Origin: a virus
Strand: one strand, 5' to 3'
IMG/VR virus record: IMGVR_UViG_3300022074_005761
Span: 1 to 24,447 of that record
DNA length: 24,447 nt
Position numbers and translations under genes: made by a program
Notes under the pieces: model-generated
Database searches by the model: none
Told to the model about the DNA's origin: nothing
The model's input: the letters and a program-made list of their open reading frames with translations, nothing else
Shown here: one piece after another, positions 10,859 through 22,026 of the stretch
How positions within the stretch are numbered: the stretch's first letter is position 1
Layout: each line of letters begins with the position of its first letter

Positions 10859-12004
10859 CTATCCGCTACCCTGTCTTATGACAATGGTTGAAGAACTGCC
10901 ACCATTAACCCTTACTTGATTCTGCACACCGTCTTGGTCAAGAATTACTGTATAAGAGTTGTTTCCATCAATAGTAATATTGGCATTTGAACTTACTTCT
11001 CTTTTCATGCTTATTGATTGACCAGAAACAACAGTAGTAATTTGAGTACTGCTATCCTGCCCTACTGCTGTGCCTTTTATGTCTATTGCTGTAGCAACTT
11101 GTCTTATTTCATCTTCCTCTTCTATGGCATCTAATTCGTTGATAATATCTAGCAAATCCTCAAGGAAATTTACATTCAAAGCATCATAATCTAGCTCAGT
11201 AAATTCTAGTTCTTCTCCCTCAAGCTCATCTTCTGCTAATGCGTCATATTCAAGTTCATCAAAATCTAATATGTCGCTTTGGCGTGAGTCAATAGCTTCC
11301 TCTTCACTTTCTTTTCTTTTTGGCGGGGAAACAATCAACATATTGTCAATAAAGTCTAATGACAAATCTAAAATTACAGGGTCAGATGGTGGACTTTCAA
11401 ATGTTGTAGTTGTGGTTGCCTGATATGGTTTATTAAGAATTACCTCTCCCAAAGCTGTCGTGACTACTATTTCTCCTGATGATGTTCCATCAGGGTTTGG
11501 CAAAAGAATAAATAAACTTTCTCCTGTGTCTGCCTCTACTGTGACTGTGAAATCTGTACCCCTGATTCCGACAGTCGCACTATTTGTTCTGAGAACCATA
11601 TTTTTTTTGGGAACCGAACCTAATAAACCTGTTGTAAATCTTGCTGTACCTTTTACAAAATTAAGGGCAAGTTTAGAATTATCTGGATTTGGGTCAAAAA
11701 CAAACTCATCAATAATAACCTCTGAGTGTTCTGTGATCTTAATAGTAGTATCATCAACGAATCTGATGCCCATGCGACCTGATTCTGTCTGGGCTTTGTC
11801 GTATGACTGTATGCCAAAGTCAGTTATAACTTCGTAAGGCTTATCCCTTTGTATTTGTGCGTTTCCTGAAACTTCTTCTACAGAACCTATATCAGCAGCT
11901 TGTGCTTGTACCTTGATCGTTTTGAACGACACAAACAGTACCATTATTACCGCTAGAAATAACTCTAAGCCAATCGTTGTCCAATGTGCTTGCTTGTGTA
12001 ACAT
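10859..12004 (-). CDS. FecR-domain protein with acidic repeats and curlin-like C-terminus
   Basis: The 381-residue protein is probably exported: residues 1-36 form a signal peptide ending QAQA. Residues about 40-200 are a FecR domain (IQSYDKAQTESGRMGIRF, then ATVGIRGTDFTV). Residues 244-283 are eight tandem acidic five-residue units with Leu in the third place (DELEY, DALAE, EELEF). The last 45 residues contain curlin-like segments (ITIDGNNSYTVILDQDG, then VQNQVRVNGG). The gene overlaps the curlin-repeat gene by 113 bases. FecR domains usually sit in periplasmic sensors, but here there is no membrane helix after the signal. I infer an anchor or nucleator for the curlin-repeat protein, the role CsgB plays in bacteria. 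Confidence 0.82.
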   Translation of the reverse strand: MLHKQAHWTTIGLELFLAVIMVLFVSFKTIKVQAQAADIGSVEEVSGNAQIQRDKPYEVITDFGIQSYDKAQTESGRMGIRFVDDTTIKITEHSEVIIDEFVFDPNPDNSKLALNFVKGTARFTTGLLGSVPKKNMVLRTNSATVGIRGTDFTVTVEADTGESLFILLPNPDGTSSGEIVVTTALGEVILNKPYQATTTTTFESPPSDPVILDLSLDFIDNMLIVSPPKRKESEEEAIDSRQSDILDFDELEYDALAEDELEGEELEFTELDYDALNVNFLEDLLDIINELDAIEEEDEIRQVATAIDIKGTAVGQDSSTQITTVVSGQSISMKREVSSNANITIDGNNSYTVILDQDGVQNQVRVNGGSSSTIVIRQGSG

Positions 12005-12599
12005 TTAAAGTTCTTGAGTTGCCTGTGTGATCTAAATAAAAATAACCGCCCTGATATCCGTCACCATTGTAATTGATGGTATTTGAATCACCATCAATAT
12101 CCATGTAGTTAGTTGCTAAATCAACATCAATATCGGCATCTACTGTATTACTATCACCTTGAATTATCCAATCTAAGTCAAGCGTAGAAGCCATAGCAGT
12201 TGTGCCTTGATCAATGGACATATCGTTTGAGTTACCTGTTACATCTACATTAAGGTTTGAAGAGTCAGCTCCATAAGTATTAGTAGGATCAACTTGAATA
12301 TCAAAAATATTGCTATTGCCATCAAACTCAAAAAAGCCTGTGAAGGTATCTGATGTAATATCTCCTTTGAATAAGTTGCTATCACCTATTTGGTTGATAT
12401 CAAGCGTCATGGTTGCTCCGTCCAAATCTAAGGGAGTCATAGAACCTGCTGTAGCATTCTGACCACCAATAAGGTTGCCTGAACCTAATTGCTCAACATC
12501 TAAATTAAGAGTTGCTCCTACTTGATCTATAGAAACTTCATTATCAGCCCCGTAAGCTAGAGCAGTCATCATCAATACACTTAGGTATCTCAATATCAT
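11892..12599 (-). CDS. Curlin-repeat secreted protein (CsgA/CsgB-like)
   Basis: ATG 12599 is chosen because GGAGG lies 4 bases upstream; it gives 235 residues with a classic signal peptide (MILRYLSVLMMTALAYGA). The mature part is built of about eight repeats around a G-[DN]-S-N core (GDSNLFKGD, GNSNIFDIQ, GNSNDMSID, GDSNTVDAD, GDSNTINYN, GNSRTLNVT), alternating short strands and turns. This is the curlin beta-arch pattern G-x-x-N-x5, although many of the usual Gln positions are Asp. The protein is very acidic with few Lys or Arg. It ends with two cysteines (C223, C235). It is the likely cargo of the CsgG/CsgF pore encoded just upstream. Confidence 0.8.
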   Translation of the reverse strand: MILRYLSVLMMTALAYGADNEVSIDQVGATLNLDVEQLGSGNLIGGQNATAGSMTPLDLDGATMTLDINQIGDSNLFKGDITSDTFTGFFEFDGNSNIFDIQVDPTNTYGADSSNLNVDVTGNSNDMSIDQGTTAMASTLDLDWIIQGDSNTVDADIDVDLATNYMDIDGDSNTINYNGDGYQGGYFYLDHTGNSRTLNVTQASTLDNDWLRVISSGNNGTVCVVQNDQGTSTSC

Positions 12600-13383
12600 C
12601 GTACCTCCAAAGGTTTTGCTCAATCCCCTTCTCTATGATTTTGAGAACCGCAAATTCAATGGCGGATTGCAATGCAATAGTTACTGACTCATTTTCCACA
12701 TTTCCATTCTCTATTTCAACTAATTCTGTATCGTTTTTGACGAATCTAAACACATCTCCTGACTGTCCATGACTTAAAATGGTTTTAGTAGTAGTAACCT
12801 CTAATAATATGCGCCCAGAAAGCACAGAAACGAGCCTCAAGCTCAAAGTTACTGTATCTTGTCTATATTGCCTACTTATACCAATTCCGAGCAACCTAGC
12901 CCCATTTCCGCCTGATCTGACATTTGACTCATAACCAACTATTGCCCCTTCAAATAACATACCTGCAAATAAAAGAGGTTTGAGTTTTTGTTCTTCTTTG
13001 AAATCCTGTCTTGAACTCCTGATTATCTGTCTTTCTTTTGTAAGGTTGTCTAAGCCAACTCTTTCTACGACTGTAAAGAATTCACCTCTTGCTGCACTTT
13101 TCAACGCTTTGATCAGAAGATTGGCAGGGGCTTGAGTTACAGCAGTAGAGAATGAAGCATAAGTACTGTTAGACCTACGCTGTCCTGTCATATCAAGAAA
13201 CGCACTTGGATAAACTGCTACCACCAATTTTTCTTTAGGTGGCGACAAGTATTCAAGCTCGTAATTTATAACATCATGTAGATGCGGATATTTTGATATA
13301 CGAAAGTTATCTAGTTTGTTTTTAGGTAATGCTCCGCAGCTAGAAAGTGAAACTATTGATAGGGAAAGTAATGACAGTAACAT
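12544..13383 (-). CDS. csgG: CsgG-family outer-membrane curli secretion pore
   Basis: This lipoprotein would form the ring pore through which curlin subunits cross the outer membrane. ATG 13383 follows GAGGAAGG and gives a 15-residue lipoprotein signal with Cys at 16 (LSSC), the same position as in E. coli CsgG. ATG 13422 would add a basic stretch and is the alternative. Similarity to E. coli is strong: FSTAVTQAP, ERVGLDNLTKERQIIR, GAIVGYESNVRSGGNGAR, GIGISRQYRQD and TTKTILS all match. In the constriction loop the conserved Phe is kept, while the E. coli Asn before it is Ser and the Tyr is shifted by two. It overlaps csgF by 44 bases and the curlin gene by 56. Confidence 0.94.
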   Translation of the reverse strand: MLLSLLSLSIVSLSSCGALPKNKLDNFRISKYPHLHDVINYELEYLSPPKEKLVVAVYPSAFLDMTGQRRSNSTYASFSTAVTQAPANLLIKALKSAARGEFFTVVERVGLDNLTKERQIIRSSRQDFKEEQKLKPLLFAGMLFEGAIVGYESNVRSGGNGARLLGIGISRQYRQDTVTLSLRLVSVLSGRILLEVTTTKTILSHGQSGDVFRFVKNDTELVEIENGNVENESVTIALQSAIEFAVLKIIEKGIEQNLWRYDDIEIPKCIDDDCSSLRG

Positions 13384-13828
13384 GACCTTCCTCGTCTGTA
13401 ATAGTAAGCGTAATCGTTTCATCGTCTGACTCATATTCTATGGTGTTACCTTCTAACTCAATAGAACCCTCTTTTGAGGCAGTTTCTCCGAAAAGATTTT
13501 CTACAAGTTGCCTTGATAGTTGTGCATACACTCTGGACTCTAAGTTTCGTATGAACCTAGATAGTGTAGTGTTGTTTTCTTCCCTTTCTAATTCTTCTGC
13601 TAACGCTTTGATTTCCTCAAGCAAAGTTTTCTTCCTAGTGTGTTCTTGATTTTCAATGGTCAGATAATGTTGTGATGTATTGAATCCAGAGAAACTAGGC
13701 GACTTAAATTTAAAAATCATCTCATCTGTGTAGACAAAGTTTGAAAACAACAACAAAAATATGACAAGTAAGACAAAAAATATAATTGTTCTTAGCTGTC
13801 TTTTTTTATATTCCCACCAATCTCTCAT
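13340..13828 (-). CDS. csgF: CsgF-like curli assembly factor
   Basis: CsgF binds inside and below the CsgG channel at the cell surface and couples secretion to fibre nucleation. The 162-residue protein has a long signal sequence (basic to residue 13, hydrophobic 14-29). Its mature start EMIFKFKSPSFSGFN (36-50) aligns with the E. coli CsgF start TMTFQFRNPNFGGNP, the segment that sits in the CsgG pore. A helical middle with RVYAQLSRQLVENLFG follows, and a C-terminal beta part ITLTITDEEGHVTVITFPI matches the E. coli end. A GAGGAAAG site precedes the ATG. It is slightly longer than E. coli CsgF (138 residues). Confidence 0.88.
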   Translation of the reverse strand: MRDWWEYKKRQLRTIIFFVLLVIFLLLFSNFVYTDEMIFKFKSPSFSGFNTSQHYLTIENQEHTRKKTLLEEIKALAEELEREENNTTLSRFIRNLESRVYAQLSRQLVENLFGETASKEGSIELEGNTIEYESDDETITLTITDEEGHVTVITFPINSFTF

Positions 13829-18358: not shown

Positions 18359-19231
18359 TTATAAAGACTCCACACATGAGAAAGCAATTCTGTAAATTGA
18401 GTTTCTATCTGCTGACCAACTTATATCATTGTCTATAAGTCTGAATAATCCTTTGGGTGATGCAAACTTAACAAGATTATTATCTGCCAAAGCTGATCTT
18501 AATTTGGGTTCTACGCCCACTGAAAATTTGTTTGCACCGCCGCCTACTGCTGTTTCTGTTGCTGCCTCTGTAACCAATAATAATTGTACTGGTTGACTTG
18601 TGGTGCTTGTTCCGCCTAAAACACCTAGATAATCTCCAACTGCTATCGTACCTGCTGCTGTATTACTTGTTGCTAATAATGATAAACCTTGTGCGCCTTT
18701 TATGTTTTGTTGAACCTTGCATCCAGAGGTTCCTGTTTCACCTGTAAGGGTTGAATCTACGACTACAACTGTGTTGCTTGTGACTGTTGTTATTTTGTGG
18801 GTTCCGTTGTTAGCTTCATTGTCTGCGCCTGTTACTACTATGTAATCACCAACTATTGCGTTTGCAAAAGTAGAAGCCCCTGCAGTAATCGTGCTGCCAG
18901 AAAAGGTAAGAGCAACATTTGTATTTGATATTCTTGCATTAGCTTTAAGATCATCTGCATCATAAGTGCCTGTGTTTGTTAAAGCGTCTGGGTCTGTAAA
19001 TTTGAAAACATTAGCACTGCCTTTCAATCTTGATAGAAATGATTGCCAGTTTACTGCTGTTGATCTGTTCATTGGGGGCAGCACCACATTGGCTCGCCAA
19101 AAAACATTATCAAACTCTTGAGTCTTTTGTTGACCTGTAAAGGGACTTACTGTTTGTCCAATGCTTCTTACCAATTCAAAATCACTTGAAAGAAAGTTTG
19201 GTGTTGTGGGCATTGTTAATTCTTTTGCCAT
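18359..19231 (-). CDS. Distal tail-like protein with inserted beta domain
   Basis: The 290-residue protein follows the tape measure in transcription order, where the distal tail (Dit) or DUF2460-type protein is found. The N-terminal part (FWRANVVLPPMNRSTAVNWQ) and the C-terminal part (GLFRLIDNDISWSADRNS, then IYRIAFSCVESL) make one domain. A Thr/Val/Gly-rich beta-sandwich-like insert lies between about 95 and 165 (NGTHKITTVTSNTVVVVDST). The assignment rests on position and pattern more than on a signature. Confidence 0.7.
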   Translation of the reverse strand: MAKELTMPTTPNFLSSDFELVRSIGQTVSPFTGQQKTQEFDNVFWRANVVLPPMNRSTAVNWQSFLSRLKGSANVFKFTDPDALTNTGTYDADDLKANARISNTNVALTFSGSTITAGASTFANAIVGDYIVVTGADNEANNGTHKITTVTSNTVVVVDSTLTGETGTSGCKVQQNIKGAQGLSLLATSNTAAGTIAVGDYLGVLGGTSTTSQPVQLLLVTEAATETAVGGGANKFSVGVEPKLRSALADNNLVKFASPKGLFRLIDNDISWSADRNSIYRIAFSCVESL

Positions 19232-20859
19232 TATCTCATACCTCTTTTGAATGAACCGCCTCGCATATTAGCTTCAAGAACAGCAGCTTTTGAAACATCT
19301 GCGATCTGGGGCAACATTCTTGTTACTTCTGCTCTAACAGTTGGAACTACGCCTGTGCTAAAACTTATGTTTTGCACAACCGAAACACCACCACCACCAG
19401 ACATTGCTGATCTTGTATCTGCAGCATTCATGATGTTGCCTGCTGAATGCGGCACAAAAAGTTCTGGACCCCTTTCTCCAACAAGCATTGCTCTGCCATG
19501 AGCTGCGTGTCCGCCACCTGCACCTGCAGGCAGTGGATTTTGTGGACCAAATTGCATATTAGGAAACAATCCTTGCAATATAGGAGTTATGACTTGCATT
19601 CTTAAAAATGATGCAATGATCTCTGCAATAATTGATTTGGTGAAGTCTCCGAAACTCTTTAAGGCGTTTTCACCAGAAAGTAAGGCGTTTGCAAAGTCTC
19701 TAGCTAAATTTTGTGCAGCTTCTTCCATGACTTGATTAAGCTCTGAGATTTCTGTAGTTGCGGTTTTTGTTTTTTGTGTAAAGTCTGGCAAATTTTGTGC
19801 TGCCTCACTTATTGAACTTTCTATATTTTCTGCTAATAAAACTGTCAATCTGGCAATGTCCTCATTGGCGGCAGCGATAGCCTGAGTACCTCCACCTCTA
19901 TTTGTTATTGCATCCCTTAAGGCTATGGTGTCTAAAATTTCTTGCTGTAAAGCTTCCCTAGTTTCTTCTGGCGTAGCGTCTGCACCTGCTATGTCTTGTG
20001 CAGTAAATGTATCCATTCTTAGTCTTATAAGTCTTGCTAGGCTTCCTGCTAATTTATTCAATCTATCTGCAAGTCCACCGAGCATTTGTCCCAAACCGCT
20101 TTCAAATATAGTGTTTCCAAGTTCTTTGAATGCAATTTGCATATTGGATGCCTTTGTAGAAAGGTTATCCATTTTTTGTTCCATTGCACCACCAAACCTT
20201 TGTTGCATACCTTCTATCAAAAGATTCACCATCTGTGCTGCGCCTTCTGCAGTTTTACCAAACTCACCTAGCTCTAGTCTTGTAACACCAAGTGCTTCTG
20301 TAAGAATTTTGGTTGCAGGAATACCTCTATCATCAAGTTGGTTTATTTCTTCTAAGCCAAGACCACCTGCGGCAGACCTAGAGACAAGCCTGACCATTGC
20401 TTGAAACGCTCCCAATTGATCTACTGATGTTGATGCGGTATCCGCAAAAGTCTGCAGCATATCCATGCTAGGCTCAATGCCTGCACCTTTGAGCTGTATA
20501 AATGCTCTTGAAACATCTTCTATTTGGAAAGGTGTTGTTTGCGCAAAAGTAAGAATTCTATTTAAGGCTCCTTGACCTGCATTGATTGAACCAAAAACTG
20601 TATTCAGAGAGTCTCTCAAATCTTCAAACTCTGATCCAACTGCAGCAATACCTCTTACTGCTGCTATGCTCCCAAGTCCTGCAGCCGCAGAGGCAAGCAA
20701 AGGCACAAGAGTTCTCATAGACCCGATCATTGGTAGAAAAGCGCCCCTTCCTGCCTTCCCTGTTTTACCAAGAGTTCCTTGAATGTTGTTGAGTTTGGCG
20801 TTCAGATCACGAGTATCTGCCTTTATCTCAACTATTAATTCGTCAACTGTTTTAGCCAT
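19231..20859 (-). CDS. Tail tape measure protein
   Basis: The 542-residue protein sets tail length. The N-terminus (VDELIVEIKADTRDLNAKLN) and the region FEDLRDSLNTVFGS, TPFQIEDVSRAF, LKGAGI, INQLDDRGIP are the conserved tape measure domain (TIGR02675 type). A central hydrophobic/helical stretch follows (YVxFLxM-like MQVITPILQGLF), then the typical C-terminal GERGPELFVPHSAG. At about 0.15 nm per residue, the rule known from other siphophages, the tail would be roughly 80 nm. It starts on the base that ends the GT frame (TAATG). Confidence 0.92.
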   Translation of the reverse strand: MAKTVDELIVEIKADTRDLNAKLNNIQGTLGKTGKAGRGAFLPMIGSMRTLVPLLASAAAGLGSIAAVRGIAAVGSEFEDLRDSLNTVFGSINAGQGALNRILTFAQTTPFQIEDVSRAFIQLKGAGIEPSMDMLQTFADTASTSVDQLGAFQAMVRLVSRSAAGGLGLEEINQLDDRGIPATKILTEALGVTRLELGEFGKTAEGAAQMVNLLIEGMQQRFGGAMEQKMDNLSTKASNMQIAFKELGNTIFESGLGQMLGGLADRLNKLAGSLARLIRLRMDTFTAQDIAGADATPEETREALQQEILDTIALRDAITNRGGGTQAIAAANEDIARLTVLLAENIESSISEAAQNLPDFTQKTKTATTEISELNQVMEEAAQNLARDFANALLSGENALKSFGDFTKSIIAEIIASFLRMQVITPILQGLFPNMQFGPQNPLPAGAGGGHAAHGRAMLVGERGPELFVPHSAGNIMNAADTRSAMSGGGGVSVVQNISFSTGVVPTVRAEVTRMLPQIADVSKAAVLEANMRGGSFKRGMR

Positions 20860-21403
20860 TAGTCAGGGTATAACTCCATAAGTTCTTCCAATTCATTTTT
20901 GGACATTGGTTGTTGTGTGTCAGCAGTGTGGAATTCTTTGAAGCCTCTGATAGCAGAGTACATCTCAATCGGAGATAAGTTCCAAAAGTCTTTTGGACGC
21001 ATACCCATAGTGCCAAGACAAATTTCCATGAACCTTGACCAACTGATCTTCTCATCAGTTATGCTACTTGCTGAGACTTTCCCTCTTCTTCTCCTTCTGG
21101 ATCGCTTAAGGTTTGTGCCAGAAGTTGAGCAACCTCTGTGCTTGCAGTGACTATGCCTATGTCACTAATAATGTTACCGACTTGCTTATCATTCAAATCA
21201 TTGCCGCCACCACGCAAAGCAGCTTTAAGAACAACAATGAGTTCTTTTAATCTTATGTCTGCTTGTGCTATGCGTGCAGCTAATTTCAAGATACCAGAAT
21301 CTAGTTCTTCTTCAATCCGAACTAAAGCATCTATTGTAAGCCGAGCCTTATAGGTTTCTGAACCTAAGGTGATCTCTATTTCACCCCTCAGTGGATTCGT
21401 CAT
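20859..21403 (-). CDS. Tail assembly chaperone GT fusion made by -1 frameshift
   Basis: This is a join: residues 1-109 are read from 21403 to 21077 in the frame of the G protein, then the frame shifts back one base. A further 72 residues are read from 21077 to the stop at 20861-20859, 181 in total. The T part reads [20 protein letters not shown], then [12 protein letters not shown], which is the small GTA-type tail chaperone family (DUF2376/PF09550). The T frame has no usable ATG, GTG or TTG before its conserved domain, so the frameshift is the natural way to express it. It lies between the tail tube and tape measure genes, as G/GT does in lambda. Confidence 0.8.
21041..21060 (-). promoter_or_regulatory. 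Hairpin downstream of the frameshift site
   Basis: AACTGAT and ATCAGTT form a perfect 7-bp stem with a 6-base loop, 16 bases after the slippery heptamer and just past the G stop codon. The distance is longer than the usual 5 to 9 bases, so its role as a stimulator is uncertain. Confidence 0.4.
21059..21403 (-). CDS. Tail assembly chaperone G (GTA gp11-like)
   Basis: The 114-residue product is made when no frameshift occurs. It has a beta N-terminus ([20 protein letters not shown]), a helical middle ([20 protein letters not shown]) and [10 protein letters not shown], matching the GTA-type tail chaperone (DUF3356/Phage_TAC_11) family. It ends with an acidic stretch [12 protein letters not shown]. 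It should coat the tape measure during tail assembly. Its start overlaps the upstream gene by 23 bases. Confidence 0.85.
21077..21083 (-). other. -1 ribosomal frameshift heptamer GGGAAAG
   Basis: The minus strand reads G GGA AAG in the zero frame at codons 108-109 of the G gene. It fits X-XXY-YYZ exactly and is identical to the heptamer of lambda G-GT. The following -1 frame stays open to the end of the T domain at 20859. Confidence 0.8.
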
Positions 21404-21620
21404 TTGACTTTGCTCCTGAACTTCCTTTTGGAAGCTCCAATGTTAAATAAATAAGATCATCTCTTTCATCAATAGTTGAATCCAAAACTTTGTAAGTCTT
21501 GCCATCAACATCAACTTCTGTGACATCTTTACCTAATTTATTTGGGGCAGAAAGGACACCGTCATCAAGACTTGCCTGAATAGTGTCCTTGCCCTTTTTA
21601 ATTTCTACAGTCTTAAACAT
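21381..21620 (-). CDS. Hypothetical protein between tail tube and chaperone genes
   Basis: The 79-residue protein starts 1 base after the tail tube stop. It looks like a small beta-rich domain ([14 protein letters not shown], then [20 protein letters not shown]) with a disordered Ser/Asp tail. I do not recognise a family. Position suggests a minor tail protein or tube accessory factor. Confidence 0.68.
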
Positions 21621-21621
21621 C

Positions 21622-22026
21622 TTATGCTGCTGCGAATGTTACTGCCCCACTAGATTCTAGTGTGACGGAATAAGTGGCTTCGCCATTGTACTCACCTGCA
21701 AACTCTAGAGAAGTTACTTGAAAACTTCCTGTGTAAGTTCCCAGATCAGGAATCACAAAATCATAAGTATTGAATACTGATTCCCCAACTGAAGTTCTTA
21801 ATTGTTGCTCAGATGTGCTGTCCGTGAAAACACCAGAACCACTGATAGTTAATGATTGTATTCCACCTTGAGCTAAAAGAGTTCTTTTGTTGGAAGAATC
21901 CTTGTTGGTTATATCAACCATTTCATCATTCAAAACAATAGAAGAAGATCGTAAGCCACCTACTGTAACTTTGGATCCGCTCACTGTTGCTTTTATGAGA
22001 ACTGCTGAACCTTTCTGTGCTGCCAT
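21622..22026 (-). CDS. Major tail tube protein (TP901-1/GTA type)
   Basis: The 134-residue protein would polymerise into the tail tube. It has the family pattern: KGSAVLIKATVSG at the start, GLRSSSIVLNDEMVDITNKD, TLLAQGGIQSLTISGSGVFTD and a C-terminal EFAGEYNGEATYSVTLESSG. These match the TP901-1 major tail / GTA tail tube family in both length and sequence. It has a GGAGATAAATT-type ribosome site and begins 13 bases after the tail terminator gene. Confidence 0.9.
   Translation of the reverse strand: MAAQKGSAVLIKATVSGSKVTVGGLRSSSIVLNDEMVDITNKDSSNKRTLLAQGGIQSLTISGSGVFTDSTSEQQLRTSVGESVFNTYDFVIPDLGTYTGSFQVTSLEFAGEYNGEATYSVTLESSGAVTFAAA

Follow-up and report, generated by a model that had tools for sequence, protein, structure and literature searches.

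The tail gene cluster of a marine phage raises the question of how the second domain of its tail assembly chaperone, which has no start codon of its own, is produced. The window, meaning the whole stretch of DNA that was analyzed, comprises positions 1 to 24,447 of IMG/VR record IMGVR_UViG_3300022074_005761 (24,447 nt). The genes around the chaperone are read on the minus strand in the order tail tube, G, T, and tape measure, and a preliminary description had proposed that T is expressed by lambda-like −1 frameshifting at the end of G. The relevant features are as follows.

21622..22026, minus strand: major tail tube protein (PF06199, E 1.8e-31)
21381-21620, minus strand: 79-aa open reading frame separating the tail tube gene and G (no Pfam match; only a weak PHROG match)
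21059..21403, minus strand: G, the N-part of the tail assembly chaperone, 114 aa (ORF call; PF11836, Phage_TAC_11, GTA-gp10)
21077..21083, minus strand: candidate slippery heptamer GGGAAAG, read G_GGA_AAG in the G frame and kept in phase in close relatives
20859..21077, minus strand: T domain in the −1 frame, 72 residues plus TAA (PF09550, Phage_TAC_6)
21040..21061, minus strand: hairpin around the G stop, seven Watson-Crick pairs and one G-U pair, 15 nt past the heptamer
20852..21055, minus strand: spurious 67-aa open reading frame in the G frame past the G stop (ORF list)
19231..20859, minus strand: tape measure protein, 542 aa (PF20155, E 5.1e-16; phrog_973)

Both parts of the chaperone match their families well above the curated cut-offs. 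The G product matches PF11836 with an E value of 1.6e-18 (67 bits against a cut-off of 27.8), and a profile search of the −1 frame product, which the preliminary description had called for, matched PF09550 with an E value of 3.6e-11 (43.8 bits against 23.4). A sequence search of the PDB with G found no relative. G ends at a TAA at 21061-21059, and the −1 frame remains open to a TAA at 20861-20859, which shares bases with the ATG of the tape measure gene (20859) in the arrangement TAATG. This open frame bears out the predicted G-T fusion of 181 residues, 72 of which follow the slip. No ATG, GTG, or TTG lies upstream of the conserved Trp in the T frame of the window, and the first start-type codon is the internal Met of 'FMEIC'; the view that T lies in the −1 frame without a usable start is thus upheld, as is the presence of the wrong-frame 67-aa product among the open reading frames. 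As in lambda-type loci, the chaperone gene is located between the tail tube and tape measure genes, with the 79-aa frame intervening before G.

The heptamer GGGAAAG, which is also lambda's own, occurs only once in this stretch, at 21083-21077 on the minus strand. Its first base occupies codon position 3 of the G frame and its AAG is the sixth codon ahead of the G stop, exactly the phase that had been reported. When the last 20 codons of G were shuffled, 1.7% of trials produced GGGAAAG in phase, and 2.7% produced an in-phase X_XXY_YYZ heptamer of any kind (Y = A or T). Taken alone, the heptamer of the window is therefore weak evidence, being moderately unlikely by chance, and the case becomes strong because the site is conserved in relatives.

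In the first two viral scans, close relatives hold GGGAAAG exactly 22 nt upstream of the G stop while the flanking codons vary, the conservation that the preliminary description had proposed to look for. More distant relatives carry GGGAAAG or GGGAAAC at other sites near the end of G, or AAAAAAG or CCCTTTG. A wider viral scan yielded 43 further distinct G/T pairs, all with T in the −1 frame and an in-phase heptamer; T has no start near the domain in 20 of them, and the other 23, with runs of eight to nine As, additionally offer T a start (ATG or GTG) where an ATGA/GTGA junction occurs. Once redundancy had been reduced at the 80% level, 53 sequences from phages, prophages, and other cellular sources remained; in 35 of these, an in-phase heptamer lies within the final 63 nt of G, against 3 and 4 for the other two phases, 4 for an internal stretch of G, and a codon-shuffle expectation of 3.1 ± 1.6. 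An in-phase heptamer was found in none of 40 Rhodobacterales gene transfer agents (GTAs) used as a control. An X_XXY_YYZ heptamer is therefore present in phase within the overlap and is conserved, as in the lambda system. Two exceptions were noted. In the close relative L037 (2978-3077), GGTAAAG replaces GGGAAAG, T has no start, and the hairpin is retained; in the viral contig L043, T is in the +1 frame with its own ATG. Sequences without a heptamer usually have a T with its own start, which may sit in the +1 frame. Viruses of the AAAAAAA group (L082, L092, L101, and others) combine an in-phase A7 site with a T ATG or GTG at an ATGA/GTGA overlap; they are possibly intermediate between the shifted and own-start forms, and separate synthesis of T is possible in many of these viral relatives, judging from their junctions.

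The protein domains, the frame, the phase of the heptamer, the absence of a T start, the conservation among relatives, and the gene order support frameshifting. On this sequence evidence, a lambda-type G/GT tail assembly chaperone frameshift in GTA-type proteins is very probable. Such a G/GT frameshift was reportedly described in phage lambda (Xu et al. 2004, Mol Cell, as cited in PMC5009743). Most ribosomes would stop at the end of G and release the 114-residue protein, while a minority would move back by a single base at G_GGA_AAG, where the tRNAs paired with GGA and AAG would shift to GGG and AAA, and would produce the 181-residue GT fusion. By analogy with lambda, G would be made in excess over GT and would coat the tape measure protein, and the T part would recruit tail tube subunits.

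There is a small chance that T is instead translated separately from an internal start, by re-initiation past the G stop, and that the heptamer is incidental. Rhodobacterales GTAs and two other clades use this route with ATGA/GTGA overlaps, and the window does contain an internal ATG, the 'FMEIC' Met. However, initiation there would lose the conserved Trp, and no earlier start is present; moreover, this Met belongs to the domain, and the position is not ATG in the relatives L043 and L054. Incidental occurrence is also difficult to reconcile with the excess of heptamers over chance and with their absence where the T of a GTA has its own start. Relatives with an own-start T and no slippery site, which the preliminary description had named as evidence against frameshifting, do exist (Rhodobacterales GTAs, two other cellular clades, and L043), but they branch from among relatives with a slippery site, and in them the heptamer is gone together with the need for it.

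Slippage of RNA polymerase on the run, rather than of the ribosome, would also restore the frame and is conceivable in relatives with eight to nine As. The window and most close relatives carry GGGAAAG, a run too short for efficient polymerase slippage, and this process requires no particular phase of the heptamer, whereas phase clearly matters in the non-redundant set; we regard it as very improbable. A −1 split of a single protein resembles an indel, and the two frames might formerly have been one, divided by a sequencing error or by decay of the gene. Dozens of distinct contigs, as well as cellular genomes, share this split in the identical frame and have a slippery site there, which refutes this explanation and leaves it with hardly any probability.

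The hairpin that had been noted behind the heptamer is present and conserved, but its position is not that of a classical stimulator. Its 7-bp stem, AACTGAT/ATCAGTT, occupies 21060-21054 and 21047-21041. The 33-nt core of the window hairpin folds with a z score of −2.7 against shuffles, while the 60 nt after the heptamer fold as well as their shuffles (z 0.03); in relatives, folding clearly surpasses that of shuffles by a wide margin (z −3.8 to −4.9). The seven core pairs, counted by script, are intact in all six distinct stems, a small number, and two pairs have changes on both sides: one alternates between T-A and C-G, and the other occurs as G-C, A-T, and G-T. These data suggest a conserved and co-varying hairpin, for which coding constraint on the T side is a possible alternative cause. 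Classical frameshift stimulators sit 5-9 nt from the heptamer. The present hairpin includes the G stop and begins 11-15 nt beyond the heptamer, so it does not qualify as one; an effect on termination, or a different function, is possible.

Frameshifting in tail chaperone genes is well established, and the lambda G/GT case has been reviewed (PMC5009743); according to the same source, G_GGA_AAG shifts very readily in E. coli and serves as a g-t shift site in a halovirus. The window resembles lambda in the location between tail tube and tape measure, the −1 direction, and the short overlap, but differs in its protein families, the GTA pair PF11836 and PF09550, and in the conserved hairpin spanning the stop codon. 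RcGTA has a second tail chaperone gene after g10, termed g10.1 (PMC9765227) or g10.5 (PMC11409702), and this pair shares with the window both protein families and the same order ahead of the tape measure gene. Most Rhodobacter capsulatus phages of one collection are said to have a programmed chaperone frameshift (PMC8601537), which the accessible part of that source neither ties to PF11836 and PF09550 nor sets against the two-gene form of RcGTA. In the accessible part of an RcGTA-phage comparison (PMC11409702), the two chaperones are handled as separate genes and no discussion of frameshifting was found; the open-licence literature is incomplete, so this absence proves little. As a separate observation, Pelagibacter phage HTVC202P (L289, 2852-3360) has a 113-aa gene followed by an unannotated gap and then the tape measure gene; the gap can be read through in the −1 frame and the 113-aa gene carries an in-phase A9C run at its end, so that a frameshifted chaperone from a different family has probably gone unannotated here.

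Cellular genomes were searched with a GTA protein, since the diverse T alignment was too weakly conserved to serve as a query. Unlike the window, Rhodobacterales GTAs have two genes: 78 of 79 pairs lack any heptamer (the remaining one has GGGCCCG), and T, in the −1 or +1 frame, almost always starts at a codon of its own near the domain, most commonly in an ATGA or GTGA overlap. Beyond Rhodobacterales, in a class-wide sample and one whole order, both forms occur. The genomes of seven slippery-site loci (L225, L227, L228, L229, L238, L245, and L248) encode GTA_TIM, in six of the seven on the same contig 4-7 kb downstream. The region around L229 (L252), which carries GGGAAAG, has RcGTA-like surroundings with an HK97-type portal, protease, capsid, TIGR02217, TIGR02218, and TIGR02219; its tape measure is 196 aa (NF058675 at 205 bits, slightly below the cut-off of 220), and a host PBP1A-family gene adjoins the cluster. 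For L253 and L254, the GTA-like label derives solely from GTA_TIM and the layout of the genes. Within the order that includes G013, CCCTTTC is present and a T start is missing in eight clusters; in another 21, T has its own start and no heptamer occurs. GTA_TIM is encoded in most of these genomes. The conservation of CCCTTTC is weaker evidence than that of GGGAAAG, because the T-frame motif PFPW partly dictates it. The statement that the chaperone domains are separate genes in the GTA thus holds for Rhodobacterales but not in general, since several RcGTA-like clusters outside this order, which may be working GTAs or related prophages, carry a slippery site without a T start. A rule that phages shift and GTAs do not was dropped, given GTA_TIM in slippery-site genomes and the RcGTA-like cluster L252.

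The window itself does not fit an RcGTA-like GTA, a type with a short tape measure (~200 aa) and RcGTA-type tail tip genes: its tape measure has 542 aa, its large tail protein is J-like (phrog_5616, phrog_31), and the phage carries its own helicase/primase. Two records deposited as 'Bacteriophage sp.', L056 (MW462191) and L251 (MW091529), pair ~180-aa tape measures with neighbouring GTA-type genes and could be GTA clusters from bacteria. The phage of the window also encodes a curli secretion set at 10859-13828 on the minus strand, comprising CsgF (PF10614, E 7.9e-19), CsgG (PF03783, E 2e-48), a protein with a weak curlin-repeat match, and a FecR-domain protein; curli or CsgG appears in the literature alongside pelagiphages and a marine methylophage.

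In trees of G and T, the own-start form occurs in several separate clades among slippery-site clades. With a viral clade as the root, at least five changes are required, and frameshifting is the simpler ancestral state. By parsimony, with short proteins and a chosen root, this suggests that frameshifting is ancestral and was replaced several times. We lean, with modest confidence, towards a history in which the G/GT frameshift came first in this tail module, persists in some non-Rhodobacterales RcGTA-like clusters (GGGAAAG or CCCTTTC, no T start), and was replaced by an own-start T in at least three cellular lineages, including Rhodobacterales GTAs.

The very probable mechanism is lambda's and already known, and the new part is a modest evolutionary twist. 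For annotation, a T frame behind G is easily missed. The finding that GTA-type chaperones are linked to the lambda strategy, proposed earlier and sustained here by the profile matches, the −1 frame, and a phased heptamer conserved in independent contigs, connects the chaperone pair of GTAs with the way in which lambda tails assemble, and it suggests a role for the second GTA chaperone as a T domain recruiting the tail tube protein. If the proposed history is true, the G:T ratio in own-start lineages would be set by other means, and why classic GTAs swapped a fixed-ratio frameshift for two genes becomes a testable question.
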